Source: Undaria pinnatifida | Taxonomy: Eukaryota > Sar > Phaeophyceae > Laminariales > Alariaceae | Length of the DNA stretch: 64,000 bases | Assembly: GCA_012845835.1 (NCBI GenBank) | Contig: JABAKD010000020.1 | Span: forward strand, 2,862,936-2,926,935 | Reading direction: 5' to 3' | Part shown: piece after piece, positions 15,301 to 52,727 of the stretch | Numbering within the stretch: position 1 is the first letter of the stretch | Layout of the letters: each line of letters opens with the position of its first letter | The notes under the pieces: model-generated | What the model was told of the DNA's origin: nothing | Database searches by the model: none | The model's input: only the letters and a program-made list of their open reading frames with translations | Position numbers and translations under genes: made by a program

Positions 15301-18300
15301 AACGTTGGCAAAGAGCTGCGGGGAACGGGGGGGGGGTTAGGACGGGGAGGGAGCATTCGCACGATTTCTCGTACAGCACGGGAGGCGTTCATGGGCAGGG
15401 AGGAGGAGGTGCAAGGGGGGAGTTCCAGCGGGGTTCCTGGCGGTAGGCCGAATATTTTATATATAGAATTTAGAGTATACTTTAGTATTAGCATTGAAGA
15501 CTTGCCAGTACCTCTGGTAGTGGCGAAACCAATATCGACGTCAATAGGTATTGAAAGTATTACCCTCGTCGAAAACCACTAACTGGTAGTCAAACGTCGA
15601 TTGTAAGATTCGATAGTTCAAGTATTCCGGAGTGCAACAAAAACTGCTCGTTTTCAGGGCCGAGGCACAGCTCTACAATACACTCAAATCTGCATTTTAT
15701 TTCGTTCGGTCCATCTTGCTTCAGCCCCGCTCGCCCGGTCCTTGTCCGACGCGCGTCATCGATATCTCATACTCGACTCACCTGGTCCGGGACGTTAAAC
15801 CTCTCGTGGTCCAGCGCCTTGGCGACCGCTACCCAATCCAGGCGCGGCCCGTAGTCCTCCACGAGCACCTGCCTCGCCACGTCGAGCTTCCACGCCCCCT
15901 GCCCCTGCCCCGCCGACCCCCCTCCGTCCCTCCCGCCATCGCCGGCCATCTTTTGCGACACGTCATTCGGGGAAAAAACGTCACGAAGAGAACACACAAT
16001 ACAAGTCAAACAACATACGACAAGATACATGCACTCACGAACGTAAACAATAACAAGAACATACGATACACGTTATGTTAATGTTTCCTGCTATGCTTTT
16101 GTTTCAAGCCGAGAAAACGTCGCAAACACGCCCCAGCTGAATTAAGAGGGGCAGCGGGGGGGGTGAGTGTAGAATCCACGGCACACACAGCACAGGCAGT
16201 ACATCTGGTAGGCCAGCTAAATGTCTACTGGTTGGTTAGTAAGTTTGCCGGTCGGACAGTCAACGAGCCAGTCAAATCACTCAGTCAAACAAGGAACAGC
16301 AGTCAACTTATTAATAGTCAAGTCAGATAGTCAAGCAACTCCGATAGAATCAAATCAGAGGAGCCAAACCAGTCAATCAAGTCATCAATTTCGTCAGCCA
16401 ATCACCCACTTATTCATCCAACAGTCTATCGGTCAACGCCAGTCAGCCAACAACAATCCCACTCGGTCAATAAAAAAAAACAAGCACTCAGTTAATCGTA
16501 ATTGGCCGATCACTCACCCCATCGTTTACTCGGGCAGAGGGTACCCTTCCGCTTTTTCGACAACATGGTTGACATACTCTTTATATTATATATATATACC
16601 CTGCCCCTATCCCTAACCCAATGAAACACACCAACCATTGTACGGTGAAACCCCGTTCGTCTCGTACACAGCGCGCGTCATGTTGTCGAACAAGTGGTGA
16701 GCTCTACTGCTCGGAAAACCGATCAGCCAATCAACCACATCAGCCAATCACAACACTCACTCATTCAACCAGATTCACACCAACTTAAGTCAGTGAAATC
16801 AGTCGATGGAATCCGTCAATACTATCAGTTAATGAAATCAATGAATCCGTCAACGAAAGTAGTCAATGAAATCAACTAGTAGTGATAAAACTCCGTCAAT
16901 GAAATCAGACGATGAAATCAGCCAATGAAATCAATAGGATCAATCGGTCTGTTGGTCCTCCGCCTCACCTGCCCCTCTCCCGACGAGAAGAGGCTGCTCG
17001 TAAGCGCCGACGACAGGTCCCCATCGTCCCCCTGTCCCTTGGCGCTGTTGTAGTTGTTCGCCAGCATCGCAATCACTTGCGCCACCTGGCGTTCGTCAAC
17101 CACTAGCCCACTCTCCTGCAAGGGCAGCAACGGACAACAGAATATCGCGTTCGCGAAAAAATAAAATAAAATAAATCACATCTTTATACATCGGAAATAC
17201 AACAATATCGTGTCTCCGAAACAAAACAAGACATTACTTACCCCGCTTACATATACCACAGGTGTCGTTATCATTATGAAAAAGGTGTAACATCAGCCGT
17301 CGATGCTTAGTCAACTACCTGAGAGTTTACTTTCGGATCGCCCGCAACAAAAACGCCATCACATCTTGATATGACAGTAACCCCTTTAACGCGTCTACAA
17401 CTGGAAACCCTTTCGGGAACAAATTTACTCCAAGTTAGTATTATATGGAGGTATTTTGGGGCTCTAAAGGGGTTACGGCTGAAGAGGTAAAACACGTCGA
17501 ACCTACACGGTGACTACAGCATCGGCGACACGAAGCAGCCCTTTATGCTGGGGTGAGGCACAAATCTTAAGTCAAACGTATGACGCTGTACGAAACACGC
17601 GCAGCATGAAAAAAACAAAGGGTTTTTTAAGAGTCAGATCGGATCAAAGTGACCCGACCCGACCCATGACATCGTAAAAACGTCCTGACCCGATCCGACC
17701 CGATCAAGCAGACTTCGAACACCACCTGACCCGATCCGATCCGACCCGGAATTATTCGTACACCACCTGACCCTATCCGACTCGACCCGCGAGTAATTTT
17801 CAAAATTCCGGCACCGACCCACGGGCCGGGTCACGAGTCGTGAAAAGCCCTGAAAAAAAGCACGTAGCTGCACGCTTTTGCAATCATAGGTGGATGGTAA
17901 AATATGCCATCTTTTTTCGTTTCTTCATTCGCAGCGTAGGCTAAATGTGTTCTCAAAAGGGCAACCCCTTCATTGGCACTGCACCGACCTTTCGGGGTAA
18001 AACTATTAATACTTGAAATCAGAGATGATTCGTAAAAGCTGTACTAGTTGGAAAATATTTTACGACGAGCTTGAGCTTTTATGCCACTGCAAACGTTCCA
18101 CTTTAAGCCCACACTATTTACTTGTCCACGGAAGGAGGGAGCACTTCGAAATGGGTAAAATCGTCATCAACTAGCCCGTGGTAACAAGACCGGCCCCAAA
18201 AATACATCTCGAGGGGGAACAAACATGAACATCCTAACCCTACATGCGTAAAACAATAAGGAGCAATACATGAAACGTTCAAACAAAAGAAAGAAAGCAC

Positions 18301-21300
18301 TCCCCCTGCCGCGCGCTGAACGCGTTTGTTATAAAATAGCCACATGGCAAAAGCCAAGGCAACGAGGTATCGGGGTTTCGACTTGTCGAACAACACCGAA
18401 ATCCAAAGTTAGCCGAGCCAAGGCAAGGCACGGCACGGCAAGGTAGATAAAGCAAGGCAAGACCATGCCACGCCAAGCCACGCCAGGACAAGTGAAAAGA
18501 CAAACCCCAACACAGGTCACAAGATAAAGCGCCCCTACCTCCCTCCCTCCCCCACCCCCTCCCGCCCTCTCTCACCCTGATCGCCTGCCTCAGTGCGCCG
18601 GTGCTAGAGCAGCACGTGTGCCCGAGGTCCTTCAGGAACCCAGCCAGACTGCCCCCCTGCCCGATCCTGCTGGCAATGTCAGCGACGTCAACCCCAAGCG
18701 ACATTGCCCCACCCGTTTTGTTCAAAAAGTTCATCCCCCCTGTTGCAGCGCTGTCCGAGAAAAGCGGCAGCAGCGCAAGCGCGTCTGCGTCTAGCAGCGA
18801 ACTTCGCGACGGTGCAACCCCTCCCGCGTCTGCAGCAGCTGCAGTACCGCCCCCCGCTTCCCCTCCTCCCCCTCCCCCGCCGGCAGCACCCCTGCCCGCT
18901 GATTCCGCCCTCCCCGCTCCCCGTGCGCCTCCCGCCTCGGTTCCCTCCTTGAAACCGCCTTCCAAACCCGCCAGGTACTCCTGGTGGGATTCCCTAATCT
19001 GCTGTAGCAGCGACTTGGCCAAGTGCGGCTGGTAGCGCGAGGTGACGAGATGAGAGGCGCGGCGGAAGCAGGAGAGGAGAAAGACGGGTAGAGAAGAGAA
19101 CAGAGGATGGGAAGGAGGTAGGGGAGGCAAGTGAAATCATAAGAAAGGGAAACAAGAGGAAAGGAAAGGAAAATAAAGTAAAATGAAGGACAAAACATAG
19201 AAAACAGAGGGAAACCAAGCACGAAAGGAACAAAACAAGAGGGAACTGGAACACGAAAGTAACGGGGGCCAAATTAAAACGGAAAATAAAACAAGAAAGG
19301 CATATACGCGAAATAAGAGCAAAATAAAGCACGAGAAAAAAAGGAGACGAGACGAGGCGACATGATACTTGAGATGAGGAACAGCGGAGACGGGGGCAGG
19401 CAAAGGAAGCAAGTGAACAAAATTTCGTAACGGTGGTGGAGTTGAGTGCGGCTGGTGCCAAAAGTACTCTTGATTCAGACACGAAGAAACGAGACGGTCG
19501 CAACAACCTGCCATCCACAAGAGAACGGACCAAATGCAAGCTCACAAGCACACGCATAAGAACACCCGCACAAACAAACACGTGACTGATCTTGCTCATG
19601 GAGCGCGTCGCAGCTGAAAACCTCGTCTTGGCAGCAGGAGACCTCGCATCTCAAACTCGGTACGTGAAGCGCGGAGCCTTCAACCCGCGGTAGGAAAAAA
19701 ACAGAACGCGCCCCGCGGCTGCATGGGCGCACGCACGCGCGCACGCCTGCCCGCCCGTAAAAAAAAACAGCCGCAAGACTGGGAAACCCTTTCCTCACAA
19801 CCATCAGCGATATCACAAAAAAAAAGGGGGGGGGCTCTACCGGTGTACCGGGTACACACTAAACTTTCTGCGAGCACAATACTCCTGCAACACGAGAACT
19901 CGCGGACTCGTAGATTTCAATATTTTTCAATTACGTTTGGTCACCTCTTTTTCCACGACCGTAAAATAGTCCCAGGATGTTTACAAGCAGGGTGTCTCTT
20001 AAAAAAGTGCAGCTACTACTGCTGCATAGGGGTTACAGCCCTATTACCCACGGCAAACACGCCAACTCGATTTCAAAACAGTTATTTTTAAAAGGTCATA
20101 CGAGTAGCAGTTGCCCGGCGTCGGCCTCACCCTCTATCGTCGTGCGTTAAGCGCGGCCGCACGTGGCCATCGTAGGCCAGGAGCGTGTGATGAAACAACA
20201 CAGTAGTATGAAATCGCCAGAAAAATCAACACGAGATGAACCCACAAACATTGAATACCATGCGGTATACATATGATACCAGGGTATAAAATACGGTAAA
20301 AATTACCACATCACCACTACACCGGAGAACTTACCATTGATCAAATTACCACATCGCCACACAAAGGCCTGACAAAGGGTCACATAACACAAAACAAATA
20401 TCACATATCAGAATGTTTATGAGAGATCGGGAGTAAACCTCATGCCGCACGTTTACTGTCGGATGTCTACGACTAGTCTTGATATGTACTCAGCACTCGG
20501 CACCAGTCAAGGCAACAACGTGCCAACAGACATCTTACCGTACCTTCCATGAACAAACCACGTGGCACAAGCGGCGAGCCGAAAAACAGCGAACCACCAC
20601 CAAACAACAAAAACACAAGCAAAGACATAATCAGGCGCACCGGCTCCAAACACAAACCCTCCCGAGAATCTACCAGCGGCGCCGCATCAGACCAGATCAT
20701 TCCGACCCCCGACATAGAACAACAATCGTCCCATGCCGAACTATACCACAATGCTGGGCGGCACCGCATCAGACCAGACCATTCCGACCCCTGATACAGA
20801 ACAACAATCGTCCCATGCCGAACTATCCCACACTGCTGGGCGGCACCGTATCAGACCAGATCATTCCGACCCCCGATACATAACAACAATCGTCCCATGC
20901 CGAACCACACCACACTGCTGTGCGGAAAATTGAGGACCGTTAATGGGTATTAATATGGATACCAAACGGTCCTTACATGGCCGTACTGCCGGAACCCACA
21001 TATTATACCAGGTATATTATACAAGGCTCCACTTCAGGATGGGGTTGAGTTATTAAACCCGGGGGAGTCGCAAATCGAAAAGGGGAACATGGGCATTTCA
21101 ATGATATGTATGAGCTACTGTTTTTGCTACCGTTGTACGCTTCGTATACCTGTTATGAAGTCCGACGATGCGTGTTTGATTTGATGGTTGCGTTGGACGT
21201 GATAATGAAAATGTTGTCGTGGTTCGATCTCCTCCTGTGCACCAGCCACACGAACACTGTAACTACTGCCACAAAAGGCAAGAGCTTGAAACACGGCTGG

Positions 21301-24300
21301 CGTTTTACTGCTGCTGCTGTGCTGTTGTACACTGATTTTGTGGCAAACACACACCACGCACGCATATCTGGTATATACCGAAGCGTACAAACATACACAT
21401 ACTACAGAAGCACCGTCTGTGGCTATTACAGGACAGATCACACCACGGCTGCTGTTTTATACCGTGACTGCCACAAGTACTACTGAACCTGGATGACCAT
21501 ATGTGACGCAGTAGAAAAGCAGCAGAGCGAGATTAGACATAATGTGGTGAAACTTCCACTTTCACATTAATAAACAAAAGAGTTTATATGTGCCCTGCGC
21601 GGCTCGGCGAAACGAGGCAAGCGGCAATATGGGTCTTGCTCTGTGGGTCTTGCCCGGTGCGACTATCCCAAACGCGGCGCGGGGCGTACAACAACGCGAG
21701 AAATAGTAGGAACGTGCCAATCTCCCAGGTAGACAGGCGGAGGGAGGCATTCAGTCACGCGAGGTGTATTACATGATGTTCAGTGCGAGTCGCACAATAG
21801 AAGTCTCAGGGCTAGGTGCAACAGATAGATACGTACTTCGTATCATGTTCAACAGATGTGCTGTTGCTGGTTATATGTATAGCTGCGTCGTAGCCGACAG
21901 CAGAGAGGGTGAGATGTATTTGACTGATGATGTCGCCCAGCGGACGAGAGAGCAGAGCGAACAATGTAAAAACGGAACGGGCTATTATTTAAAAAGAACA
22001 CAAACAACGTGGTGTTTTCCATGCAACTGATCGCCTCAGCGAGGCGGAACACAACGCCTTGGCAAAAAGAGCCAGCTCAGCCATGTTGCATGCTCAGAGC
22101 ACCGCGACGGAGCTCGGCCGGGATCCAGATATGGCATCGCAATATATCCACGGCCCCCTTGCTTGCCCCGCACCCGAAAGTTCGTGAAAAAAAAACTCGG
22201 CCGCCAGACAACACCATGCCAACAAAAGCGCATATCTTGCAGACATATTACACAAGGTTCTACTTCGGGAGGGGGCTGACTTGGTATACCGGGGGCGTCG
22301 CAAGCCCAAAAGGGGGAACAAAGGAGTTCCTTCCAATCATATGTACCTAGTATAGGCTACTAATATAACGCTTTTTGTTCTGCTGCTGAAAGTTTCGTAT
22401 GCCTGGTATGAGGTCCGACAATGAGCGTTTGATGGTTGCATTGGACGCGAAGATGTTGTCGTGGTTCCATCTCCTCCTGCTGCTGAGCACCAACCACGCA
22501 CATACCCTGCTGTGACTAGCACAACGGCGAGTGCTTCGAGTACGGCTGCCGTTGTACCGCTGCTATTGTACTGCTGCATACCAAGTACTGGTACACATTA
22601 TGCCGATTTTGTTGTGGCGAGGCTGGGCGGCTGCTCTTGAAAAAGTACATCCACCGCTCTTCTTGATCGTTTTGTGTGCCTATGACCTATGACAGCAAAC
22701 TTCCCTCTAACACACACAGAGGCGCACACACATACACACAAAACAGAGGCACCGCCGTGCGTGGCTGTCACAAACAAGTGCTGCTGCTGCTGTTGCTGCT
22801 GCGTCGTAGCAGACGGCACAGGGTACAAAAAAACATGGACCAATGATATACAGCGGGCGGGGGAGCGGCGTAAACAAAAAAAACTGTGGGGAGAGGGCTA
22901 TATAAAAACAACAACAAAAAAAGTGGGGTTTTCTGGGTATCTCCGCTCAGCGAGGTGGACGCAACCCCATGACAAAAGAGCCAGCTCAGCGATTTCGAAT
23001 GCTCAGAGCACGCGCCACGGACCTCGGCCGGGATCCAGGTATGCGTCGCAATGTACCGACGAATCCCTTGATTGCTCCGGAGCCGAAAGCTCAAAGCTCG
23101 AGAACAAAAAACTCGGCCGCCGGAGAACAGCACGCCAAGAAAAAAATAAAACGAGCACATTTTCCATCTACATACCAACACGCTCACCTGCCCAGAAACT
23201 TCCTCGCTCGACTTCACCAGCTCCAGCAGAGAGTGCAACGCCTCCAGGCTAAGCTGCCCCCCTCCCCCGCCGGTGAGCCCCGGTACCCTAGCGACAAGAA
23301 ACTTGACCCCTTCCTTAGCAACTCCCGGGTTAGAGGAGCGCGAAAGTCCGAGCCCTACCGCGACTTGCTGCGGCGGCGAAAGCTTTAGCGCACGGCAAAA
23401 GCCTGCGCGAGAGGGAAACCCGGGCACAGCGAATGCGGGGGGGGGGGGGAGGCGCAGACGGTAACGTTAATCAACTATCTTACTGCTATGACTTTAACGG
23501 GACCGATGTTTTTTGTTCGGGGCAAACATGACGAACTACACAAAAACGTACCTTGAGCCCTAGCAGGATATTTTGGTAGCTCTACAAGTCAACCCTACTA
23601 CCTATTACGCATGACTCCATCTTAAGCGGGGTATCTGCTTGGAATCGGAGATAACAGTGTTTGTGCAGTCGAAAACAGACCAACACTATGTACCGCGCCG
23701 ATGTATGGAATTTCTGAAATCCTAACGAGTGTGAAATATTGTCGCACATTCCGGCATACTGTGGAAGGCGCAACAGCAGTCGCATCATACCTAGAACCAT
23801 AATTGGACAGTTGTCGCAGCAGCAGCCGAGTGATGTACAACCTATTCCACAAAACTGCACCCACATATATCAAGCACATTTGTCTGGAATCAGAGTGCGA
23901 CCATGTTGGACCGTTTCAAGTCGAGAAACGAGTAGATTGAAGCTTCCTTGTGCTTGCATCCACGTGTCGGAGACAACCTACTTGGAATAGGACTTGGCTC
24001 ATTTACGGTAACGTGCGTATGAATACGTATGAATATATTATAAAAATAAAAAAATACACCCCAGCTGTAAGATCGAAGATTTTGTCGAAACTCATCTTTG
24101 CAAGCTGTGTCATACTCCGATCGCGCGTATTACGGGTTGTGTGTCCTCATTAAGGATATAGGTCGGCGACTCCCCTTGCAACTACAGTGTAGCTATCAGG
24201 GTCAACAGGGTGATGCTAGTCATATGTCGCAGGGGTTCCCTGGAATCACGCGCGCACGATCGAAGAATGCCGCGAACATCGCAGCAGCGGGGGGTGGGGA

Positions 24301-27300: not shown

Positions 27301-30300
27301 TTTAGACAACTGACACTTGTCTAGTCCCAAAAAGGGGAGTTCCCCTCATGGACCCACGCAAACCGGCCTAAAAAAGACAACGATCCACACGTCGGGACAG
27401 GTCACCGATCCAGACTTGATGATCTCCATGTTTCAAGGAAGGTCTGTATGGTCTAGCTCATGTTACCGGGTGAGAGCCGAACGATCTGCACTAACTGTGC
27501 ACTATCTAGCTTTTTCGTTTTTTTTTAATCCTCCGGCGCATGGGGAAAAATAAAGCTCAAGCTCACCACACTTTCACGTATTTTCATACGCGTCGTGTGT
27601 CGATTTAACCCAGTTGCTTTCGCAACCCAACGCTAGCTGGCGCACCCTTCGAATCCCACTGTAGCTAGCAAATTTCTCGGGTTGGACCTGGACTCTACGT
27701 ACACATCCTGCACAATATCTCACAACGGCAGATAGACGATCTACTGTACATGATCTACAGTCTATATGATCTGTATGATCTATATCATCTGTCAGAGGTG
27801 GGCAACAAGTCATACCACCCGGCTGAGTGATCTATACACCCGGGCCCAGTCTCGACAAATCTGTCCACTTTTTTTTATATATTTACAACACTCAACCCCC
27901 AACGTATCCCAGGCTGCACATATCTAAAGCATAGCCGCAGTCGAACGACCATAAACCTTCGCATCCCTACAATGTCTTTACCGTGCATGTCGGGTTGTCA
28001 CCGACGAGGCTGGCCTCGCGTGCACCAAGCGCAAAGCGCCGAGAGATGCTCGGCGATCTGCATCAAGGGCGAGCCGCATCCTACTAACAAGCCACTTGTG
28101 AGGCAAACTTAGGCACCTTGTGCGTACCTTCTTGGGTATATTTTGAAACAATGAAAAAATACTCTTCAGCTGTGTGTGTGAAATCGACCAAAGAGGATTT
28201 CGATCAGAACTCATATTTGCAAGCTGCGTGCGATACTTTGATCGATATATGTAACAGCTTCCAATGAACTAATTATTTTCTGGTGCAACCAAATTCCAGC
28301 GCAACAGCGGGAGGGGGGTGGCGCAAAAGAGGGGGAGGTGCGGGGTAGGGTACCCAATAGCGGCCTGCGCCACTCGTACCACGCGCGTCTTTCTAGTCAA
28401 AACAAGGGCGGGGGTAAGCCCTCGTCGGTTGAGGCAGCCAATCATAGGAGAATGAACAAAAGCGAGGTCGTCAGAATACCAGTCCCCTCAATCCCCGTCA
28501 TGTCAACTCCTGGTACCCTTAGGATAAGCCAGGACTCCGTCATTTCAACTCCTGGCACCCTTGTGACAAGCGAGTAATCAAATCGTTTCACCTCTTGGTT
28601 ATCTTGGGATCACCTCCTGGTTCCCTTGGGATGAGCGGGGACTCGGTCATTTCAGCGCTATGATGAGGGCGGGTGTGAATCCTCGTCGGGTCAGGCAGGC
28701 TATCATAAGAGAATGATGCAAAGTGCATCGCGTCCATGTTTTAAACACGTCAGCTGCGACTTCGATAAATTTAGGGTCGATACTCATATTTGCAAGCTGC
28801 TTGATACGCCGGCAGCTCGTTTTTGCACATGTAGGATTTTTTTAAATATATATCCGCGTGTTATCTTGTGTCATACGTCGGCCACAAGCAAGAAAAAAAG
28901 TGAAAGCCAACAACAAAACCGCCGGCTGCATGTGCAGCCCTAGACTTGCAGCCGATGATGCTGCCGTAAGATTTCGCTCTTCGTACATGAAGTATTTCGG
29001 GGGTGGGGGTGGGGGGTGGGGAGGGAGGGGCGTCACTGCTGTCTATACAGCAGTACGACAAATATTTAGATTAAAGATCACCAGCCCCGCTCGTCACGTC
29101 GCGAAACGGTACGTACAGAAGCCATTTAGAGTCCGATAAATATCGCATCACAGCAAGTATACAAAACCTAACCGTCGCCCGCCGCATTCAACCCATTTGC
29201 TACTGTACTGCAAACGTGATACAACCCAAGTTCCAAGTACTTTGTCTATAACAGTTGGGTGCCGGCAGTCGAAATGAGACAAATAATTTGAAGGTTTGAA
29301 GCAAAAAAATAAAAATAAATATTGGGGATAAGTCTGCAGGAGCCCGACGAACCGTTCAAGGGCTTACGGTCCCGCCTTGTCACGTCTCGTGTGGTACAAC
29401 GCGCAGTTTTGGTAATCTACAAACAAACAAAAAGGCCAAACATGGAGACAACTAATCACGATCCAAGGGACTAGTCTGGACCCCAGCGAACGATTCATTC
29501 GAGGAAAGTTCCGCCCTTCCCCATGCGGGAAACCAGGACTTTGTGTTTGGAGCAAAACCACGCGACGAGTGCGACGCCCTCCTTAACACTATCTGCCGCG
29601 AGGCGGCTTGACAGATAAATTTCTCAAAGAGCCGCGAGTATCGTTGCTAACCTCTGCCTCGGCGGGACAAGGAAACCATTCGTACAAATGCCGCGAACGC
29701 CCACGTTTAGGCGACAAACTTGAATATCAATATGTAGAAAACAAAGGCACCAGTCTACAGCAGTAGCGGGCCCTCTGGCGCCGGTATGTACCAGCCTGAA
29801 ACACGGGCACCATATGATAGCGGCAACCGTCGGTACTCCGAAAGCTGTCACTAATGCGAAATCAGCGCCAAGCGATTTCACAGGCACTATTAGCGAGCAA
29901 CCGACACTGCTCAACTGGCGCGATAGAGGGATCACTCTGCAGCCAACTTGAGAAAAATGTAGAGAAAAAAAAGGCCCACCGCAGAGTCGACAAGACCGAC
30001 GACCACGCCTAAAGTTTCCGAGAAAGATCAAGCCTTTACGTCGTAGCTCTTCGGAGCACAGCGTACGCTTTCCTGACGACACACCATGTGGGTGTAGGAC
30101 GCTTTGTGCGCTCGGGGCCCATCATAGCATGTCCCACTCGTGTGTCTGGAGGGCTCGTCACAACGCCAGGAACTGAACAAAAAAATAAATAAACCACTTC
30201 CACCACCGCTCCGAGAAATAAAACATAACTCTGTAGTGTTGACAATACTTTTTTTTGGTTAAGTCCTTTCCATCTGAGCCAACTTCCTTTGAAAACAGAG

Positions 30301-33300
30301 TTGATTGCATCACGTTTGGAGCTAAAATAAAAAACATCATGGGTGAACTTCACATTAAGTGAACGTGCTTCTAACAAAAAATATGAAGCCAAAAACACAA
30401 AACGTCAAGAGAAACACCAGGCGGAACGAATGATCCCAAGAGACCAGACCATACAGAGCCAAACCCTAATAGCATAACGAGCGCAGGCAGCAGACAGGGC
30501 GCCACTGCAGTCCCCACCGCGCTCACAGCGTTCCAAAAAATAAAATAAGTAAATAAACGCTGCGATAGCTCCGCCATCGTTAACGCCCTTTCCAACTGGA
30601 AACCTTTTTCTTTACAAATTAACTTGAAGTTAGCATAGGGAGGGATTTGGGGGCTCCCAAGGGGTTAACGCTACCATTTCCACTACCGCTACCACCGCCA
30701 CTACTTCCATCAACCTTCACCATTATCACCATATCACCACTACTGCTATTACCACCAACCCCACTTTTACCACAATTCACCGCCACATTACCACTACCAC
30801 CACCACCGCCCCACCCTTACCGCTGCTGTTACCGCAACAAAACCACCTTCCTCCCCGGCCGCACCTTCTGAGCGTCTTTGTTCCCGTGGTGTGCGTGTGC
30901 TCTCTGCTCTTTGAACCCGGTTTCTTCCACCAGACACTCCAACAGGAACAGCCGTGCATCTTCCCCGTATAACTCGATCAACTGCAAAACAGCAACCAAA
31001 ACATTTACCCATGTTGGTTTTGGCCGAAGGCGTAGAGCCGGAGAGCAACGACAAGACGAGACGTAAGGCAGCAGGTAGACATCGGAGAAGCAAATGTCCG
31101 GCCGACGGCAAGCAAACGAAAGCGAGGGAGGGAGGGGAAGGAGGGGAGGGAGGGGAGGGAGGGGAGGGAGGGGAGGGAAGGGAGCAAGGGAAGAGGGAGG
31201 GGAGCAAGGGAAGAGGGAGGGGAGGAGGAAGGAGAGGGGGGGGGTTAAGTTTGCGCTTGGGACTGCTGCTGCTACTGCTGGTTTACCGAAAGAGAAGGCA
31301 CGCCTTGAAAGAAAAACGGACAAGTTCCTGTCCCCTTCCGAGTTGCTCCGTCAGACACGGCACCTTTCCTGTTGAGACCTTAAGAGGACAAAGGGGTTGT
31401 GGTGTGGTCGGTTGAAAACAAACACGTTAGCCTTCGACAAGGCTCAGCGAGAATGGAAAAGATGGCGAGAGCCAACAAGAGATCCCGCAAGAGCTTTCCG
31501 ACTTGGCCTTCCCGCCCCCCGACCCTTCCCAATTTGAAAAAACAAAATAAAATTTCGAAATAACGTGTGGATCGTTGTTCGGAAGGACGGGCACGCAAGC
31601 CCGGGGAATAAATCAAATAGCTGGAGATGAAAAAAAATGGTAATAGTTTTCGCGCCAAATTCGATATTGAGGCAACGCACCATGCGCCACGGGCCGCCAA
31701 AACTTGTACACGCCTCCCCCGTCCCTGCCCCCCCCCGGTGGAGAAGGAGGTCGAACTTTCTGTCTACGCTCAATAAACGCAAGAAAAAAAAGAACAACGA
31801 CTGGGACTCGGCCGTCATGTCGTTCCCGGGGCTCCTCCTTTTCCCTCCCTTCCTTTCATATCCCGCCAACCACAAGACAACTTCATTGTTACTCCATAAC
31901 TGTCCGCCCCTGCCTTCAAGTGCAGCGTACATGGTGCACACTGCCCTTGACTCGTGTACCACGTAGATGTCGTATAGCGGTTACTATGTTACTTTAACGC
32001 CTTTATAACTGGAAACCCGTATTAGGGAAACTACTTGGAATTAGTGTCCGGAGGGGTTTGGGGGCTCTCAAGGGGGGTGGTAACCTCATGGTCTACCAGC
32101 AGGAGAGCCGCCAAAGCTACAGCAAGCGCAGCTATGTTGGGAAAACTTCGACCATATCGAGCGTTGTTGCCATTTAGATTATGATACACGCTGCTAGCGG
32201 GCGGGGATAGGGATGTGCCACGCTGGATCGCGACGAGAAGCAGCAGCAGCAGCGATAACAGCCAAGCCAGCGCCGGCGATGCTGCAGAACGCTGTGTACT
32301 GTGGGCGTGTGGGCGTCTGTACGTTTTGTTGTGGAATGAGTGATACGACGGCTCTCAACAAAAAAAATGACGCTAATGAATCCAACTTGCGATTGGATTG
32401 AACTAGAATCATGACGATTTCGGTCGTCTCGTCCCGTCGAAAAAAACAATAGAAAAAATTGGGATCAATGTACTAGAACGGCCAATTTGGTCTCCGATCG
32501 GAAAACGCCTTTTAATCAATCCGCGTATCCGACTGTGCAATAATTGGCTCAAGCAGTGCTTTTCACGGATCCGAGTATTTCCATTATAACGGGTCGGGTT
32601 GAGTCGAGAAAGGGTCACCTGACCTAAACCGTGAAAAAATTGAGTTGTCGACATCTGATCCGACTCGATCCGGTCGGTGAGATTGGAAAACCTCCCGATG
32701 CACCCCGACCCGTGATATGTTGAAGACATCCAGGCCCGACCCGACGATACCCGACCCGAACCGACGATACCCGACCCGACCCGACCCGACTCGCGCAATT
32801 TAGAAATCTCTCGACCCGATACGTGGGTCAAGAGTTTAGCCCCCACTAGACGAATACAAGCCAAACCTGTTTGAGTTGGGTCCACAGTGGCCAAACCTGT
32901 AATTTGGGTTTGGGGTTTCTGTTTAGCGGTCAAATACCGCAGTATCTGCCCAAACGAATGTAAGCCAAACGCTTTTAACCCCTTTAGAGCCCCCGAACCC
33001 CTCCTCTTACTAAATCCAAGTAATTTTGTCCCCAAAAACGGGTTTCCAGTTGTAAAGGGGTTAAGCTGGGTTTGTATAATAAGCCAACGCTCTAATTTGG
33101 GTTTGGGTATAACCCAACCCGTACGGTTACGGCACTTTAGGGGTCCCCCAGTAAGTTGGTGGTGTACCCTAGCAATGTGACCGCCTTATTGGGGGAAGCC
33201 GCCTTATTCGTCCCAGGTTATGAATGCAATTCCCCAGTCGTTTAACGCCAAGCGATGTTTGACCGTCTTATATCGGGATACCGTCTTACTCAGACCGCCT

Positions 33301-36300: not shown

Positions 36301-39300
36301 CAACTACTGCCCTCTGTATGACACCAGGTATGTATTCGTACAAAGTACATAAACACCAGCAAGAGGGAAAAGTACCAGGCAGAGTACACTCTTCGTTCGT
36401 ACTGTAGTACAAAAAACACAGAAGCACATGAACAAAACGACTGCTGCCGTCTGTATGATATGTACAAGGAACAAAAAATACCAGGTACGCGTACTAGTAG
36501 AAAAATAAGAAAGCAACAAAAACAAACAAAAACAACGAACGCCTTCTGCTCAAATACACAGCTCTTCCAAGTGCGGCTCCTCCTACTTGCGAGAAGGTCC
36601 TTCAAAATACACCTTCTGCAGGACACCTACCGTCTAATTCAATCTTGCACGTGGGTCCGCAGTAACCGTAACCCTTTGCGAGTCCCGAGGTCGGCAAGGG
36701 CGGTCGCGCGGCTCTTCGGCGTGTTTTGGTACTGCAGGGTTTTTCCAAAAACACGAGCGCTAACGCCTCTACAATTGGAAACCCGTTTGGGGGGACAAGT
36801 TACTTGGAATTAGTGTAAGGAGGGGATTTGGGGCTCTACAGGGGTTGGCCAGCCTCAACCGATCAGACCAAGACAATGCAGGAAGTTTTTGGCCGGGACG
36901 TCTTGCAGATAGGTGGAGTCCCCGAGGCGGGACGCAGCCAAGCCGGCCTCCCTGAACGCAGACTCTCCGGATAGAAAAAAAAACACCGGCCATATCATCG
37001 TAACACTATATTAGCTCCCAATAAGTCAGTAAGAAAAACAGGAAGTCATCGTGCCGAAAAATGAGAAAATATTCCATCTACCCTTTACGGACTTCAGACG
37101 GAAAATTGAAAATTGTCGATAAAACGTGACGATAAACAGCCATACCTGGTAGGCCGAACGAAGCACTCGTACCCTAGTAGATGAACGGGCTGCTGGGATA
37201 AGGAATGTATCCGACGTGCGACGTAATGACCAGTACGGTACGCGCGCAGCTCGATGATACATGCACTAATCCATACCCTGTCTATAAGGTTGGATAATAT
37301 CACACGCCGCTTTTTAGGTCGCTGTGGCTGGGTCCCTGGTACCCGGTAATACTCGCGCTGTACCAACGCTGTTGCCTAACCTTCAGGAACGAAGATTCGT
37401 TGTCTCATCACTCCATGAAAAGGGACCAACCAAAAACAACAACTGGCATCACACGTACGACTAAAGACTAAATACCAAGATCAATACTACAGATAGTACG
37501 GAACTGGTGCTGATACGGGCATAGCAAAACCTTGTAGAGGTACTGGTTATAGTACCATGTACCTAGAATGGCACTGGCGTAGCGGCACTACAGCACGTAT
37601 TGGTACTGGTACTGGGAACTGGGAACCGGTTCTGGCAACTGGGAACCGGTTCTGGGAACTGGTACGGGTGGCGATACTCGTACTCCTGAGTGTGAAGTAC
37701 GAAAAGCACGGATCATAGCAAGCTTAAGCTGTCTTGGGTCACAATGAGGTCCAAGTGCACGTTCATAACCTCCAACAAGAACGAATACCATATTGTAGCA
37801 CACGAGCATACAGCAACGGTGCCTGCGTACTGCTGCGTTGAAGTATCACACTGAACTGCGGACGTGCAACACGACTTACCGTGCCATATATACAAGGCAT
37901 AATTTGGCGGGTGCGCTTGTGTAGACCTGGTACAAACCACCCAGGTGCACGTGTCCATCAGCCGTATCACACGCAAGATAGCACACATCCCTCGTATGAA
38001 TTTCAAGAGATAACTCTCTCGGTGACGGGCAGAGTGCGAATGCCGAGAGGGGCGCCTATGTTATGGCAAGGTTTCGTCGAGATATTTCCGAGAGTCACCA
38101 TTTTGGTTGTGTGTTCTCGTCGAGACATTTCCACAGTCACCATATTCGCTGTGTTCCCCCTCTTGCTCCTCGTGTTGTGGGGAAAATCATGTCGAAACTT
38201 CATTCCAGTGGCTGGGTGTGTTATCATGCGTGCTGTACGTACACTCAACGTCTCTGTAGACATGGTGCACAGATAGAGTTATCTTCGGCAATCGGCCATG
38301 CATATTCCAGATTATATCCGCACATCAGGGTTTATTTCAGGCATGAAAGAGCGGTCATCGTTCGTGGCAATTATTAATACTGAGTCACGGTACTCGTACA
38401 TGTATTGTGTTTCTATGACTTATGCATGATAGAGCTGTGATCGGTCGCGAGCGATATGTTTTGCGCTTCTATGAATCATGCATGATAAAGATGTGATCAG
38501 TCGTGGCACACCCTAGTACGCATAAGTTTTATTGTTATGATTCACGCAGGATACAGCTGTGACCGGCCGTGACTCATCTTTCTCTATTATTAGTATAAAT
38601 ACATGCATGTTTGTGGTATCTACAATTCGCGCAAGGATAGAGCAGTAATCGCTCCAGGCAAACTTGGTCGCTCGTCACGGTCGGCGACTGGGCGACGGGC
38701 GATCAAAGACAAATCTATAGCAAGCGCGAGCGCCGAAAAGACAACGGCTCCCCAAATCAAAACCCTCAAAATGTTGGAGAGTAACTATTTACAGTCCATG
38801 GACTGCAGCTCTTTACTGCAATCCGCACGCTATTCCACTAACCCTATCCCTAACCCAATAGGTCTGCACCTACTAAGTGGGAGCAGAGTACGAAATGGGA
38901 TCCGGGCCGGGCTCGGTAAAGGTAGAGGTATTGGCCAACTAAAAAAGGAGGTGTGGTTTATTGAGCACCTCATTTCAACCGTTTCAAGCCTAGAACCAAA
39001 AAAATACAAATAACAGGGTGTGGACTGACCGTCCGCCGTCCATAGGATGTTAGTACTTGTAGGTGCCGTCCAAAACGTTCGCCATTTTTCCGTGTCAGAC
39101 TGCTGCTGTGTCTCAACTTCGCTCACACCGACAACACTTCCTGGACTCCCTTTCCCTTTGCTGACCTAAGCTAGGTGTTGTTGTGCAGCGCCCGTGTGTT
39201 TAGGTATACATAGCGCCTTGTGAACAACAAGATGCCGCTTTCTGCCTGTTCCCCCATGGTCTCTTAGTCTATACCAGGTACAATAGAGGTTCCCCTATCG

Positions 39301-40781: not shown

Positions 40782-40833
<52 letters not shown>

Positions 40834-42748: not shown

Positions 42749-44065
42749 ATATTATAGAAACTAAAACACACTCCAGCTGTGAGATCGAATATTTTGTCGA
42801 AACTCATCTTTGCAAGCTGTGTGTGATACTCCGATCGCGCGCATTGCGGGTTGTGTGTCCTCATTAAGGACATAGACTATTAGGTCGGCGACTCCCCTTG
42901 CAACTAACTACAGTTAGTGTGGCTATCAGGGTCAACAGGGTGATGTTAGGCAGTCTGTGCGCGGAAACTATAAAACCCGTTTCTGAGGGGGACAAAATCT
43001 GACAGCTGTGGAGGGAAATGCATCAGTTTATCAAGCGAAATCTGTAAGCCGAATTTCCGGTGAGGGGAGGGCGGAGTTTTTAAGCACGTGGGGGCCTGAC
43101 TGTGATCAAAAGGGGGGCGGGAGGGGGGGAGGGGGGGGGGAGGGGACGGGTGGGGCAGGTTAATTTGTGCGTGGAAACTATAAATATCTCTTGTGGGGGA
43201 GGGGGGGGGAATGTGCCGGGGGGGGCGGGGGGCGGGGGGGGGAGGGCTTTAGGTCGCATAGATGTAGGGGTTTGCAATACGCGTGGTGCTAGGTCTAGGC
43301 GATGGTGCGGGTGGTGGGGAAGGAGGGGGCGTTGGGGGCGGGGGTGGGTGGGAAATGCAGCAGCAGCATGGACGGCTCTAAAATGATGACGAGGCGATAT
43401 CCAGGGCGTGGAAGTGTTTATTTCTCTGGCGGATTTCGATATTAGGTGGGGCGTTTAATCAAGAGGAAGCAAGGGGAAGAAAAAAAAAAAAAGGGGGCGG
43501 GGGGGGGGGGGGGTTGAAAAGGTTTAGGTCATTTTTTTTTCTTTTTTTTTTCCCCAAAACCGTCAAATTTATCCCCTAAAAAGGATTTATACCTTCCACG
43601 CACAAATTGCCCGCCCGTCCGCCCCCCCCCCCCCCGCCCAGTCCCCCCCCCCCCCCCCCCCTCCCCCCCCCCCTTCCCCCCCCCCCTCCAAACCCGCTCG
43701 CTTTTGATCAAAACCAGGCCCCCACGTCCTTCAAAACTCCCCCCCCCCCTCACCGGCTATTCGACTTACAGGATTCACTTGATAAACGGATACATTTCCC
43801 TCCACAGCTAGCTGTCAGATTTTGTCCCCCTCAGAAACGGGTTTTATAGTTTCCGCGCACAGACTGCCTAACATCACCCTGTTGACCCTGATAGCTACAC
43901 TAGCTGTAGTTAGTTGCAAGGGGAGTCGCCGACCTATATCCTTAATGAGGACACACAACTCGTAATACGCGCGATTGGAGTATCACACACAGCTTGCAAA
44001 GATGAGTTTCGACGAAATCTTCGATCTCACAGCTGGAGTGTATTTTTATTTTTTGTAATAATATT
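42749..44065. mobile_element. Foldback (inverted-repeat) element, family F
   Basis: Two arms of ~430 bp run inward from TATTATAGAAACTAAAACAC (left) and its inverted partner ending GTAATAATATT (right). Arms share CTCCAGCTGTGAGATCG, GCAAGCTGTGTGTGATACTC, GGAAACTATAAAACCCGTTT and TTTGTGCGTGG in mirror order. The left inner part is G-rich (43085-43540) and the right C-rich (43618-43690), so nearly the whole 1.3 kb can form a hairpin. No transposase is encoded. Confidence 0.92.
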
Positions 44066-44325: not shown

Positions 44326-44414
44326 TTAACCCTTTTAGAGCCCCCAATCCCCTTCCTATACTAAATCCAAGTATTTTTGTCCCCAAAACGGGTTTCCAGT
44401 GGAAAAGGGGTTAA
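44326..44414 (-). mobile_element. Small TIR element, family M (copy 6, full length)
   Basis: 89 bp. TTAACCCTTTTAGAGCCCCC at the left and AAAAGGGGTTAA at the right, with ACTAAATCCAAGTATTTTTG inside. TTAA is intact at both ends. Confidence 0.9.
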
Positions 44415-44953: not shown

Positions 44954-44999
44954 ACCACGTATATATTACACGTAGTATCTATCACTACGCATACGCACG

Positions 45000-45200: not shown

Positions 45201-45359
45201 TCATACTAGCAGACCCTAGCAACTGACTAAAGACGGCATTGATTGGGCTCATAGAGGGTATCAAGTGCATCATCAAACGGCACTGGGGAGAGAACGCAAC
45301 ATGGCGAAGAAGTTAGGGCAGTCCTACGCTATCTCGTGACGGCCATTGGAAGGCCCACA

Positions 45360-47308: not shown

Positions 47309-47344
47309 ACAACAACAACAACAACAACAACAACAACCACAACC

Positions 47345-47377
<33 letters not shown>

Positions 47378-47379
47378 CC

Positions 47380-47411
<32 letters not shown>

Positions 47412-47443
47412 CAACACCAACAACAACACCAACAACAACAACA
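47309..47443 (+). repeat. CAA/ACC triplet microsatellite
   Basis: Imperfect (CAA) with CAC interruptions for 135 bp. It produces poly-Asn/Thr and poly-Val/Cys frames that are not genes. Confidence 0.95.
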
Positions 47444-47766
47444 CACGCACCTTGACACACGTCGACGACAACACACACCAAACCACCCGGCACCACAACC
47501 GCAAAGAAAGGCCAGCGCCCGGGTGTGACATACCAGGTAAGCTGGGTACGGGTCCCTCGACATAGCATCACAACGCGTCACGCAACACAAAGGAGAGTTC
47601 CAACATAGTCTAATAATGGTGTACCTGGTACCAGTTATTTTGCATCGTATTGAGCCCAGAAGGAAAAAGACGTCAAAAACGTGCAGGCGTCGACGCCAAA
47701 TACCTTGTCTTGCCGCCACGAACGAACGACATGATGAGCTCAGGTTGCCACTACTAACTAACGCTA

Positions 47767-47875
47767 TTGACCATTCTTTTTTTTTTTTTTTTTTTTCCTT
47801 GTATATCCTCCGGCGGATGGATGGGGAAAAATAAAGCTTTAGCTCACCACACTTCCACGTATTTTCATATTATTA
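47767..47875 (-). mobile_element. A-tailed retroposon-like element S (copy 3, short)
   Basis: A T run (A tail on the minus strand), then TATCCTCCGGCGGATGG, GGGGAAAAATAAAGCTTTAG and CACGTATTTTCATA. Only the tail-proximal ~90 bp is kept. Confidence 0.8.
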
Positions 47876-48340
47876 TTGGGATTTTTTCGTGCAACACACG
47901 ATCGTCGACTGTTTTACTGATTCATAGCACCGTTTCTGATTATTATATTTTGAGTTTTTTTTTCCGATATCTACCGTGAGGAAATAAATGAGCCTTGATT
48001 TCTTATGAGCGACACGTTCTTCCGAGCGGGCGCCCTCTGTATGTTAGCTACACGTCGACAAATCCTGGGCGCCACCTCTACTGTCAGCACACCCAGGTCC
48101 GTGGTTATTCGCTTGGTATGGAGTGATTTTGCATATCTAGCTACAGTCTATATATCGATAATATTGCGCACAGGCTGCTTGCTGGTGGAGCAGTAACGGT
48201 GGCCGCCGGCAGGGACAGGTCGCGCTGTTGATACCACGGCAAGACTGAGGGATATACGCCGGCTATCATAGCGCGCTGGATTGCGCGTACACAAGTTACA
48301 GCTGAAATCGACACGTGTGCGCCATTTGTGGAAAATTAAT

Positions 48341-48428
48341 ACGTGGAAGAGTACCCCCAAATCCCTCCCTACACTAAATTCGCGTAATTTTTCCCCCAAA
48401 AAGGGTTTCCAGTTGCCAAGGCGTTAAC
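48341..48428 (-). mobile_element. Small TIR element, family M (copy 7)
   Basis: ACTAAATTCGCGTAATTTTT, AAGGGTTTCCAGTTGCC and GGCGTTAAC are kept, with a decayed left end. Another M-like fragment (48428-48512, CAAGTGATTTGTCCCC) directly follows. Confidence 0.8.
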
Positions 48429-48512
48429 CCACATTTCCAACTCCCACCTTTTTCCAAGTCTAACTTCAAGTGATTTGTCCCCATGTCGGGAGTGCGTTCC
48501 TAAAATAGGACT

Positions 48513-50280
48513 AAAGCTTAATTTTTCCCTACAAGTATTTGCCGTAGGATAATGAAGATAGGGCCTACGCAGAACGGGCCTGGGGGACCTTATGTGTTCG
48601 TAGTATTTTATAAAAATTTTTGAAACGTAGTGTTTTGTAAAATTATTGTAACAACGCCGTCATAATATGATGCGAGTTTGACAAATTTAGGGTCGATACG
48701 CACTACTACTCATCTTATTGCAGGCGCTGCGCAATACACCGGGGGTGTCACCGTTTTTCTCGAGTAGCTTTTTCGTGAGACAAAAACCCTAAGGACTTGT
48801 TTTAGTCAATAACGGGCCTTTTAATCCTGTTCGATGAACCCGATGAAGACGTCAACGTTTTAGGTGACAAGGTGGAAATTGGTGTTCATGTGTACACACT
48901 ACGTCGAATAAACGATAAAAGTATCTCCTTTGCTATTGTCGTCATCATTTTAATCTAGGTATTACGACCAAGTGTTTGGCTGCTCCAGGATTTGTGTCCT
49001 TTAGGTCCGACAGTAGCGGCCACCGGTAGCTTATTGTGGGACAATTACGAGGAAGGGTGGCGGGGGGTTGATAGCACCTCCTGCCCCCATCATTTTACAT
49101 GGGATATTTTTATCCTTCCAAGCCGTGAGCTAAGAAACAAGCCATCTACGGGAAGAATCTAAATGATGCGAAGTGGTGTGCTCCCCAGCATCGATATACC
49201 TCCGCCTGTGTCATTTACCACTCGGCAACGCGTTGACAGACGGCGTCGGCGGCAGCAGCAGCATGCAGTTGGCTTCCCCCCCCCCAACAAACTTGTCGAT
49301 AACCCAACCGTTGCCGCGAGAGACGCGAAAAGTTGAGGAGGACCAGCTCGCAATTTGATCGTACTCTCCCCCTTCGGCGGTGCTCGGTGATGACGTGACA
49401 GTCTACAGCCAATCCATCCATTATTATATCTACACCATGACAACCAGTGAGCTTCGTGTGCAGTCAACGCTGACCGCATAGCTCGTCCAATGGTCATTGA
49501 TGGTGTGGCAGTAGAAGAGTGTTTAACACATACATGCATCTCCAGCACAAACGTTGATGTGTTTTAATAATCCATGTAGATAGGCTATCCGGGCTTCTTC
49601 TGCGCAGGAACGTGTGAGCAAGCTGCAAACAAAAATACTATGCGGGGTGCGCAGAAATTCATGCGAGCAAGAGAGACTGTGTAAAGGAGGCCTCTGGTAC
49701 CATCGGTGTGTACAGCACCAGTACGCCATTTTAGCCCGCCCGATCTACACGTTACTATAGAAGGCTATATACCCCCGTATTCTCTATTACCATACCGGGT
49801 TTATGCCATAATTAATGCACCGCAAGCGACCTGGTTTTACGAACCTCGCGCAAACACGGACTTGAAAAGAAAAGGTAGTCTAAAGCGATATCACATGTAT
49901 GGGGCTGGGCGGGGGGGGGGGTAGATTGTTGGGGGGGGGGAGGGGGGGGGGTGGAGCTAGTTCTTTCAAAGTTGAAGCTGGACCCTCGCCCCGCTCTTTT
50001 CTTTTTCAGCGCAACAAAGCGAAACAGCGAAAAGTCCACGGCGGAGCGGCGGCGCGCATCGCGAAGCGAGTGACTCTGAGCCGCGGAGATAGAGGCGCCA
50101 GAAGAGGCTTCTTCTTCCGTATAGCCTTGGTTTGAGCTATGTACGAGGTCCTCTTTTTTTTCCCCCATGATGGTGTGATATGTATATATATATATTTTTT
50201 CATCATCATCAGACTTTGAACGCTAAGGGGTTTTGCCCTCTCACTGATCTCTTCTGGGCGAAAGGCGTGGTCACAGGCGG
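48513..50280. other. Intergenic, no gene seen
   Basis: Mostly single-copy-looking AT-rich sequence with a small family F-like patch (48660-48725, TTAGGGTCGATACGCAC) and G runs at 49911-49952. The longest frames (around 49.2-49.5 kb) show no family motif. Confidence 0.5.
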
Positions 50281-50296
50281 TAGGTGGCTTGCCTTT

Positions 50297-50322
50297 CCCC
50301 CCCCCCCCCCCCCCCCCCCCCC
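50297..50322 (+). repeat. C homopolymer, 26 bp
   Basis: An uninterrupted C run; a G run of 21 lies at 50678-50698. Such runs are common throughout the window. Confidence 0.95.
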
Positions 50323-50764
50323 GGTACATGCAGTTTATTTATTTTTCGCGAATACAGGGCTCAGCATTTTCAGTCTCACTTTTCAGATTCTTTTTTTTTT
50401 TTTTCGTGCTCTCTCGTTGATGTTCGTTCGTCTCAAATTTTGCTACATGTACTATGCAAAATGAACAACACTGAACATTTAACTGTCCACCATGCTTCTT
50501 CAGTCCGCTCGCCTTTTCCGGCAAATTAGTCAGTGTGCAGCGCACGTATCCTAGACTACTATTAATACATGTATGTATGATGCCACACACACGTTTCAAT
50601 CCTTCAAAAAAAGACACGACGTGCGCCGCGATACTTTTGCATGCTCAATTTCAGGCGGGGGGGGGTTGGTGCGCGCCGGGGGGGGGGGGGGGGGGGGGTC
50701 CTTTTCGTACGAATGACATATGTTTTGTTAGAGGTACCCCATATGAAGTGAGACGTGTGCTGCA

Positions 50765-51800
50765 AAGACAGAGGTGTGCCCACTTTTCTTTCTGAGGTTC
50801 CTCAATTTTTGGGAGGTTAAAAGACATGTCCTTCTTGACCCCCCCCCCGAAAAAAAAACTCAAAACCTGGACAAAAAATAAAACTGCTGCTTATGCTGTA
50901 CGTTTACCGGATGAAAACGAAAAAATCCCACGGCCTCCGAGAACCGATGCAAGAAAAAGAAAAAAATGGCGTGTTTCCGACGATTTTTGGGTTAATCCGT
51001 TCCACGAGTTGAGAGGCATTCCCCGGTGGGGGTTGGGGGTTGCAAGTACTCCCCGTCACTCAGAAACCGTTTCAGAAGAAAAGTACTACCTCTAACGTAG
51101 CACGAGTTGAGAGGCATTCCCCGGTGGGGGTTAGGGGTTGCAAGTACTCCCCGTCACTCAGAAACCGTTTCACGAGTTGCGAGGCATTCCCCGGTAGGGG
51201 TTGGGGGTTGCAAGTACTCCCCGTCACTCAGAAACCGTTTCAGAAGAAAAGTACTACCTCTAACGCAGCACGAGTTGAGAGGCATTCCCCGGTGAGGGTT
51301 AGGGGTTGCACTTTGTGGGCCATATGTTTTCTTTTTTCCTGCTGAGCTCCTCTGTGAGAAACTACCGCTTAGTCTGATACCTTTTCGAGTCGTATATTTT
51401 GTTTTTTCTTGGGGGGGGACGCGCGTGCTACGACAGAGGTGGGCCACTCCCCCCCCCCCCCCCGCCCGAGGTTCCTCTCGCTTTATTGGGAGCTTAAGAC
51501 ATGTCCTTTCTTGACCCTAATCACTGATTTAAAGAAAATAAAACCGCTATGTTAAGGTACTAGTGGGGTATTAGTCCGTTTGACCACTTGCAAAAAGGTT
51601 AACCAATAGCTTACTTACCCAAACTAAGCCTTAGAACAGATTCCGGATGAAAAAAAAACACACATAACCTGGGTATATATACAACGAGGATTATGCGATT
51701 TTTTTTTGCCTATTTCCAACGATTTTGCGTTAAGGAGCCACGTCATTCAAAAACAAAAATAGCCAAAAAGAGGTACACCTCTATCGAAGCACGCGTCGGA
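50765..51800 (+). repeat. Family R repeats, two copies, the first expanded by a minisatellite
   Basis: Copies at 50765-51002 and 51437-51800 share CAGAGGTG, GAGGTTCCTC, AAGACATGTCCTT, CCGGATGAAAA and GGGTTAA/GCGTTAAGGAGCC in order. The second ends CCTCTATCGAAGCACGCGTC. The same modules recur at 60.1, 60.6 and 63.3 kb and inverted at 54 and 56 kb. Confidence 0.75.
51003..51310 (+). repeat. Tandem repeat with 98-70-98-bp units and G-rich telomere-like core
   Basis: Units start at 51003, 51101, 51171 and 51269 with CACGAGTTG(A/C)GAGGCATTCC and GGTTRGGGGTTG. The 70-bp unit lacks the AGAAGAAAAGTACTACCTCT part. GTCACTCAGAAACCGTTTC is the family R end motif. Confidence 0.92.
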
Positions 51801-52637
51801 TTGCGCAAAAAACGCCTTCGAAGTCAGGTTTTCGGTGTGAGATATTGAGCCAGCTCCTCATATGTTGGGAAGAGCTCAGAAATTTTTCTATCCCCAACCG
51901 TGTGGGATGCCTCAAGTGGAGGGCACGACGACCAAAAAACCGCCGTATCGCGCACGCAATGTTCCAACTCCCCCCGCTTTTTGTTTGTTCGTTTGTTCGC
52001 TTGCGCCAGAACACAATCACTCCCCCCCCCCACAAACCTCAACAATCAGTCGTGGACCAGACAGACAGAAAGCGGACCCAGCTTCCTGCTGGGACCTGTG
52101 GATAGGATGCGCAGGAACAAACCACCATTCATTATATTGCCAAGCTTGGTCTTACCGACGATCTAAAACTATGAACACCATGAATAATGTTTTGTGAGAG
52201 AGCGCGAGAGTTTGACTTTTTGAGTATATCACCCTGCACACTCACTCGTCATACCGTGGAGATCTCCGTGCATTGCCCTTGTTTACGTCGGGGCCATCCC
52301 ACGGTGGCAGGGGATGGCCAATTTCTCACCCCGGAGCATGACTTGGAAGGCGTTCGTTCGCGCAACTCCCGACCAGCACTTCTGGATGCCCTGGTCTAAC
52401 AACAAGCCGCCCTTCCTTGTGAGATTGTTACACCAATAGCATGTCAGTAGTCCCTCACCTACCTGGGGATCTCAACCGTAGGACGGAAACATTTTTGGCT
52501 CAAAAAAATGCAAACCCCCACCACCGCGGAAGGACTCTTCCCGGCCGAATCTTCTTCGGTTTGCATCGCCTGACGACGCGTGCCACGATACCGGCGCACC
52601 ACATATTTTTTTTTGTTAGGTCCCTCGCTTTCGGAGC

Positions 52638-52727
52638 TTAACCCCTTTACAACTGGAAACCCGTTTTTGGGGACAAAATCACTTGGGTTTAGTATAGGGA
52701 GGGGTTCGGGGGCTCTAAAGGGGTCAA
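52638..52727 (+). mobile_element. Small TIR element, family M (copy 8, full length)
   Basis: 90 bp. TTAACCCCTTTACAACTGG at the left and GGCTCTAAAGGGGTCAA at the right, with ACTTGGGTTTAGTATAGGG inside. One base of the right TTAA is changed. Confidence 0.9.

Follow-up and report, generated by a model that had tools for sequence, protein, structure and literature searches.

A short TTAA-flanked MITE family in the kelp Undaria pinnatifida, probably moved by a piggyBac-type transposase

We focused on a short repeated element in a 64,000-nucleotide stretch of the genome of the brown alga Undaria pinnatifida (C27:2862936-2926935; this whole stretch is referred to here as the window). Judged from sequence comparisons, the element is most probably a non-autonomous family of miniature inverted-repeat transposable elements (MITEs), made up of ~82 bp plus TTAA target duplications and moved by a transposase of the piggyBac superfamily, a reading to which we assign a probability of about 0.8. 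The genome searched comprises 511 Mb in 68 contigs; in what follows, C-numbers denote contigs and L-numbers denote the genome stretches fetched for this study.

RESULTS

Structure and copy number of the element

For the detection of copies, we built a profile from 30 copies at other genomic places (L042-L071), with no copy picked from the window, and searched with nhmmer. This yielded exactly eight copies in the window at an E value of ≤1e-3, with scores of 56 to 95 bits. As a chance control, the window was modeled 50 times as a first-order Markov sequence; the best score was 13.9 bits, and none of the 50 sequences reached 50 bits. The eight copies listed by the first-pass annotation of this DNA are thus borne out, with profile coordinates that agree with its starts within ~10 bp. 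The clean ends that it had described, TTAA followed by CCCC and GGGG followed by TTAA, are found in the best copies and have decayed in others. The two near-consensus copies are those at 32975..33064 (minus strand, 93.9 bits), with TTAA at both ends, and at 52638..52727 (plus strand, 95.4 bits), with TTAA on the left and TCAA on the right. TTAA is also present at both ends of the copies at 30580..30668 (plus strand, 61.7 bits) and 44326..44414 (minus strand, 80.6 bits). Only the left TTAA is kept at 31994..32079 (plus strand, 62.3 bits), where the right end has decayed, and at 48348..48427 (minus strand, 56.2 bits), where the right end is degenerate. The left TTAA has decayed at 17386..17476 (plus strand, 61.9 bits), a copy with a second TAACCCC just upstream, and both flanking 4-mers have decayed at 36760..36847 (plus strand, 66.1 bits).

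The element consists of TTAA, ~82 bp, and TTAA, with a perfect terminal repeat of 8 bp (CCCCTTTA) set within imperfect inverted repeats. Its ends read CCCCTTTACAACTGGAAACCC and, from the opposite side, CCCCTTTAGAGCCCCCGAACCC, which are identical over these 8 bp and show scattered matches thereafter. Members of one subfamily begin with CGCC (end CGCCTTTA) and carry ACTTGAAGTTAG internally. The interior measures 82 bp in 48 of the 85 full-length copies and ranges from 69 to 94 bp across all 85, and TTAA flanks the left end in 62 and the right end in 58 of them, in a sample that was partly picked by the right end. Being short, without coding capacity, bounded by inverted ends, and present with more than 1,800 exact ends of either kind, the element has the attributes of a MITE. 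Short interspersed nuclear elements, by comparison, have an RNA-derived head, an A-rich tail, and a target duplication of variable length; this identity does not fit the TTAA-specific duplication, and the window contained no tRNA gene and no Rfam match at the gathering threshold.

Genome-wide, the exact right end (GGGGGCTCTAAAGGGGTYAA) gave 1868 matches and the exact left end (TTRACSCCTTTACAACTGGAAACC) gave 1878, with no match for either of the reversed-pattern controls. These counts miss many old copies, as an exact right end is found in only two of the eight in the window. In ~253 kb of other fetched DNA, the profile found 22 matches in addition to the copies for which the loci had been fetched; several of them adjoin such a locus-defining copy, and the one at L045 is the copy for which L044 had been fetched. 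None lay in the five 9.9-kb piggyBac stretches (L037-L041). Taken together, these numbers suggest a genome total of roughly ten thousand copies in order of magnitude, an approximation because the sampled stretches were non-random. Viral contigs contained no match to a 20-bp MITE pattern.

TTAA target duplication and empty sites

The target rule can be read from host repeats that occur both with and without the element. At L047, the element is inserted in a host repeat and is flanked by TTAA on one side and TCAA on the other. For this repeat, 20 element-free sites were aligned, corresponding to 19 distinct ones (L001 and window position 53025 are the same place, and the duplicate was removed by hand). 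The junction was gapless in 17 of the 19, with TTAA at 13 sites, TCAA at 2, and a different sequence at 2, and was gapped in the remaining 2. Five of these empty sites lie inside the window. Four of them have a single TTAA, namely, 24108..24198 (plus strand; 96.7% identical to the joined L047 flanks), 42822..42906 (plus strand), 43889..43987 (minus strand), and 59274..59350 (plus strand), and the fifth, at 53025..53115 (plus strand), has TCAA instead. A second host repeat (GGGAGCTTAAGACCTCTCCC) has an empty site at 60103..60169 (plus strand), and its empty sites in the window read GGGAGC-TTAA-GACCTCTCCC. Elsewhere it is filled in both orientations, as determined by eye: in one orientation at L009, L011, L012, L014, L016, L030, L051, and L059 and in the opposite one at L043 and L100. 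More broadly, a paralogous site could be aligned over the junction for 36 of the 85 full-length copies; for 18 of the 36, at least one such alignment was gapless there, with TTAA in 12 cases and a sequence one mismatch away in 6. The single-TTAA empty site that the first-pass annotation had named as a check was therefore found among paralogues, in 13 of 19 cases at the L047 repeat, with other host families adding to these. Because empty paralogues have one TTAA where filled ones have two, TTAA-specific cut-and-paste insertion is well supported.

Some copies abut via one shared TTAA or form head-to-tail arrays. The adjoining copies at L044/L045 and at L074 share exactly one TTAA, and those at L008, L066, and the array L088 have a decayed or cut shared junction. 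Tandem arrays were found at L024 and L088, the latter (L088:48-400) being a head-to-tail array of four units joined via a single decayed TTAA, like the tandem arrays of coral elements discussed below. Such adjoining copies probably arose by insertion into each other's TTAA.

We also considered the idea that a TCAA version of the target is heritable, i.e., that the target copy travels with the element, given that TCAA stood on the right and TTAA on the left in 10 of 28 rows from the first 30 loci. This idea was dropped, as the right TCAA (8 of 100) and the left TTGA (7 of 100) are symmetric in the first-100 lists, which ordinary decay explains; the initial excess arose because the query itself ended in TCAA.

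The L047 host repeat also occurs in the window as a 1.3-kb fold-back (42758-44051), in which a dispersed repeat containing AACTATAAAACCCG is present twice in inverted orientation, with single relatives at 24045, 52960, and 59209. It may be a solo long terminal repeat or another element. Another larger repeat, whose TTAA hosts the MITE elsewhere, contains 40-bp tandem units (TTTTTTTGGCGAAAATGGTTTCTGAATGACGGGGTATACC) at 56147-56456 and 54145-54225.

Long piggyBac-type repeats and the search for a driver

The search for a transposase was made for piggyBac only among the superfamilies that target TTAA. The piggyBac DDE domain (PF13843) exceeded the cut-off at 6 places in the genome and at none in 14 control genomes, and a piggyBac-type exon query gave 11 genome matches. 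The loci on C13, C48, and C22 belong to one long repeat, which is ~90% identical over many kilobases. On C48 and C22, the common sequence starts exactly at TTAACCCCTTTGAGTCTTCC and extends for more than 9 kb; before this point only two bases are common, and the flanks are unrelated. The boundary thus reads TTAA|CCCCTTTGAGTC, i.e., TTAA-CCCCTTTGAG, at two places with unrelated flanks (C48:12191114 and C22:9796746), and the same start was found with a different flank at a third place (C35:6920248), where 351 bases were read. The PF13843 match itself lies in the C13 copy, which does not align with the left ends of the other two. Those on C48 and C22 match the exon query at the protein level, with best pieces that are 58% and 64% identical, respectively, and the C48 match carries two stops.

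At the one end of the long repeat that was reached, it shares TTAACCCCTTT with one end of the MITE, the outermost part of which, CCCCTTT, accounts for 7 bp. After CCCCTTT, the long repeat continues with GAGTCTTCC, compared with ACAACTGG or AGAGCCCC in the MITE. We estimate the chance of finding CCCCTTT beside a homology boundary that was placed independently at ~4^-7, or ~6 in 100,000. The long repeat therefore resembles the MITE in its TTAA boundary and terminal CCCCTTT but differs from it in its length of more than 9 kb, in the transposase exon inside it, and in having no MITE-like interior beyond a short AAAATnACTTG. Because these long repeats share their outermost 7 bp with the element, a piggyBac-type enzyme is the likely driver of the MITE. 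Of the transposase with matching ends that had been proposed as a search target, we thus recovered a part: a piggyBac-type repeat that starts TTAA|CCCCTTTGAGTC, which resembles CCCCTTTA closely without matching it exactly, and at one end only. Together with the single-TTAA empty sites, this lends support to the piggyBac-type character that was originally suggested for the element.

Three patterns were used to look for an autonomous partner carrying the ends of the MITE, and none of them produced one. A strict pattern with non-G bases upstream, with an estimated sensitivity of ~10%, gave no match. A looser right-end pattern gave 18 matches, comprising 17 MITEs and a 20-bp remnant at L087, the surroundings of which (7.1 kb) are without a reading frame longer than 145 amino acids, these frames not having been run against Pfam. 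The left-end pattern gave 10 matches, comprising 8 MITEs, a left-left chimera (L098), and a lone left end (L099, read for ~350 bp).

At the other piggyBac-type loci (C1, C27, C33, and C55), no TTAA-flanked inverted end pair was seen, and single TTAACCC-type ends occur at L039 and L037. At L039 (C27:15747200-15757100), TTAACCCTTTTGAGACT lies ~280 bp before the domain and is taken as a lead only; the piggyBac-type gene region of this locus forms a 1.8-kb inverted duplication whose halves are 99% identical. Ends of the TTAACCCCTTTGAG type are found at 38 places in the genome, compared with 9 in the reversed control, and 20 of the 38 places have TTAACCCCTTTGAG[A/G]CTTC. The two places examined besides C35, L108 and L109, have unrelated interiors, and such ends apparently mark additional families of TTAA elements that have this terminal motif in common.

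Conservation and age of the family

Conservation was measured on 30 copies that had not been fetched by their own sequence (8 from the window and 22 from elsewhere), a profile-found set in which very decayed copies are missing. The match to the consensus was 93% for the inner block CAACTGGAAACCC, 91% for the 16 bp before the right TTAA, 83% for the left 8 bp, and 88% for all columns. The earlier statement that the internal block is as conserved as the ends hence applies to the right end, to which it is about equal, and understates its advantage over the left one. Pairwise identity among the 30 copies had a median of 79% and a maximum of 97%. For the window copy at 52638, 40 of the 43 listed genome matches, itself included, were 96 to 100% identical and spread over many contigs, with only the best 40 of 1163 candidates scored. 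Given a median identity of 79% on the one hand and best matches of 96 to 100% on the other, the family is an old one to which a younger layer has been added, so that the recent spread proposed earlier describes a subset, such as the relatives of the copy at 52638, and not the copies overall. A motif resembling a G-quadruplex was present in 60 of 94 profile matches, but a role for it was dropped, as it is kept in only two of the eight window copies.

Gene and repeat context of the window

The minus strand of the window encodes CNOT1 domains (PF16417, E value of 2e-57; PF12842, 1e-21; PF16415, 1e-8), which fall in the open reading frames (ORFs) at 10046-11746 and 5974-6906 on that strand, and from these domains the window is nuclear eukaryotic DNA. 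CNOT1 is the sole gene identified there. For the EsV-1-7 domain (PF19114), a first look at the genome gave 2167 candidates, 150 of which were scored, in keeping with a brown alga. Upstream of 12 kb, none of eight candidates for further CNOT1 exons matched Pfam, and two of these eight had no match to solved structures. The 16 ORFs that were compared with Pfam from the 24.2- to 64-kb part all fell short of the cut-off, and the initial claim that five copies lie inside one gene was accordingly not confirmed. Tandem 9-bp units of the form TATATGATC occur at 57567-57694 and 27745-27809. In the part of the published repeat analysis of U. pinnatifida considered here, a table labels 36.1% of the genome "Unknown" (PMC7058681).

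DISCUSSION

The closest known counterparts of the kelp MITE are the CMITEs of Acropora corals. According to the portion of the coral report used here (PMC2872659), CMITEs are ~100 bp long, duplicate TTAA, have ends of the form CCCTTT... or CCCCT..., are better conserved in the interior than at the ends, and form tandem arrays; ~1600 copies were estimated in one coral, and an element-free allele was reported. The kelp element is similar in size, target, interior conservation, and array formation, but it is not from an animal, the perfect match between its two ends extends over only 8 bp, and, compared by eye with the 60-bp interior consensus in that portion of the report, it shows no likeness. 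As remarked earlier, the element is far shorter than known autonomous piggyBac elements, but the coral piggyBac-type MITEs in the same source are also ~100 bp long. Among brown algae, Ectocarpus has annotated PiggyBac families (PMC12477816, in the part consulted), a likeness at the level of a table row. The kelp family is not named in the literature on MITEs, piggyBac, or TTAA in brown algae, as covered by titles and the beginnings of abstracts, with supplementary repeat libraries outside this survey, and it is new only in this sense, being a known kind of transposon.

On the piggyBac reading, a transposase of this superfamily made elsewhere in the genome would recognize the CCCCTTT ends, and perhaps the conserved inner block as well, which may thus help recognition; it would then cut the unit out and paste it into a TTAA. 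Such an enzyme would most likely come from an element related to the long repeats that begin TTAA-CCCCTTTGAG and contain a piggyBac-type exon. Several observations weigh against this reading. The shared end amounts to CCCCTTT (7 bp) and a weak inner resemblance, AAAATnACTTG; within 300 kb of the C48 and C22 starts there is no other such end with at most 2 mismatches in 20 bp, the far end not having been reached; and none of the 28 odd ends (18 right and 10 left) could be assigned to a long element carrying the complete end sequence, with patterns that by our estimate would catch under half of such elements and with L099 read for ~350 bp only. Moreover, the terminal motif stated for piggyBac/TTAA MITEs, CC[C/T]T within inverted repeats of 12 to 19 bp (PMC2872659, same portion), is not strictly matched by ends that read CCCC, or CGCC in one subfamily, and that are perfect for 8 bp and imperfect thereafter. 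As for the target, the empty sites are paralogous and not allelic, the other 18 of the 36 copies gave only gapped alignments near the junction, and some of the gapless alignments represent copies nested in copies.

Transposases other than piggyBac, e.g., those of Kolobok and Sola3, also duplicate TTAA. One of these could move the element, with the CCCCTTT of the piggyBac-type repeats being due to chance or convergence, and the shortness of the common terminus, the lack of a long element with complete MITE ends among those found, and the unrelated interiors of L108 and L109, which show that the TTAACCCCTTTGAG motif also occurs outside the piggyBac-type repeat, all fit this alternative. We nevertheless consider it unlikely, given that the boundary of the long repeat was set by homology and has CCCCTTT directly after TTAA, for which chance was estimated above at ~6 in 100,000, and that the Ectocarpus table gives 4 families and 1588 copies for PiggyBac, with Kolobok absent from the part of the table covered (PMC12477816). 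The alternative that the unit is no mobile parasite but a host sequence under selection for a regulatory or structural role would agree with the conservation of CAACTGGAAACCC above that of the left end (93% versus 83%) and with the frequency of the G-quadruplex-like motif across the profile matches, but the loss of this motif from most window copies, the decay of the copies to a median identity of 79%, and the empty Rfam result make this very improbable, and coral CMITEs show the same interior conservation (PMC2872659, same portion). Passive spread inside larger repeats or by tandem duplication, which would involve no transposition, was already disfavored and is scarcely credible: several copies do occupy the same place in one host repeat, and the arrays at L024 and L088 exist, but the same host site is occupied in both orientations (e.g., L009 and L043), empty copies of the host repeats exist, and many copies have unrelated flanks with the unit ending at TTAA.

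Within the preferred reading of a MITE moved by a piggyBac-type transposase, we can also imagine, as a possible if rather doubtful extension, that the long kelp piggyBac family cross-mobilizes an unrelated 82-bp passenger via CCCCTTT alone, with the inner block CAACTGGAAACCC as a second required site, and that this design, with its conserved interior, weak ends, tandem growth, and insertion into its own TTAA, arose independently in corals and kelps.

This work names one repeat of the farmed kelp U. pinnatifida and gives its target rule. If the link to the long element is true, brown algae would possess a naturally occurring TTAA transposon system whose substrate is very short, and an interior that is kept better than the left end would offer a testable case for what piggyBac-type transposases need in order to recognize DNA.

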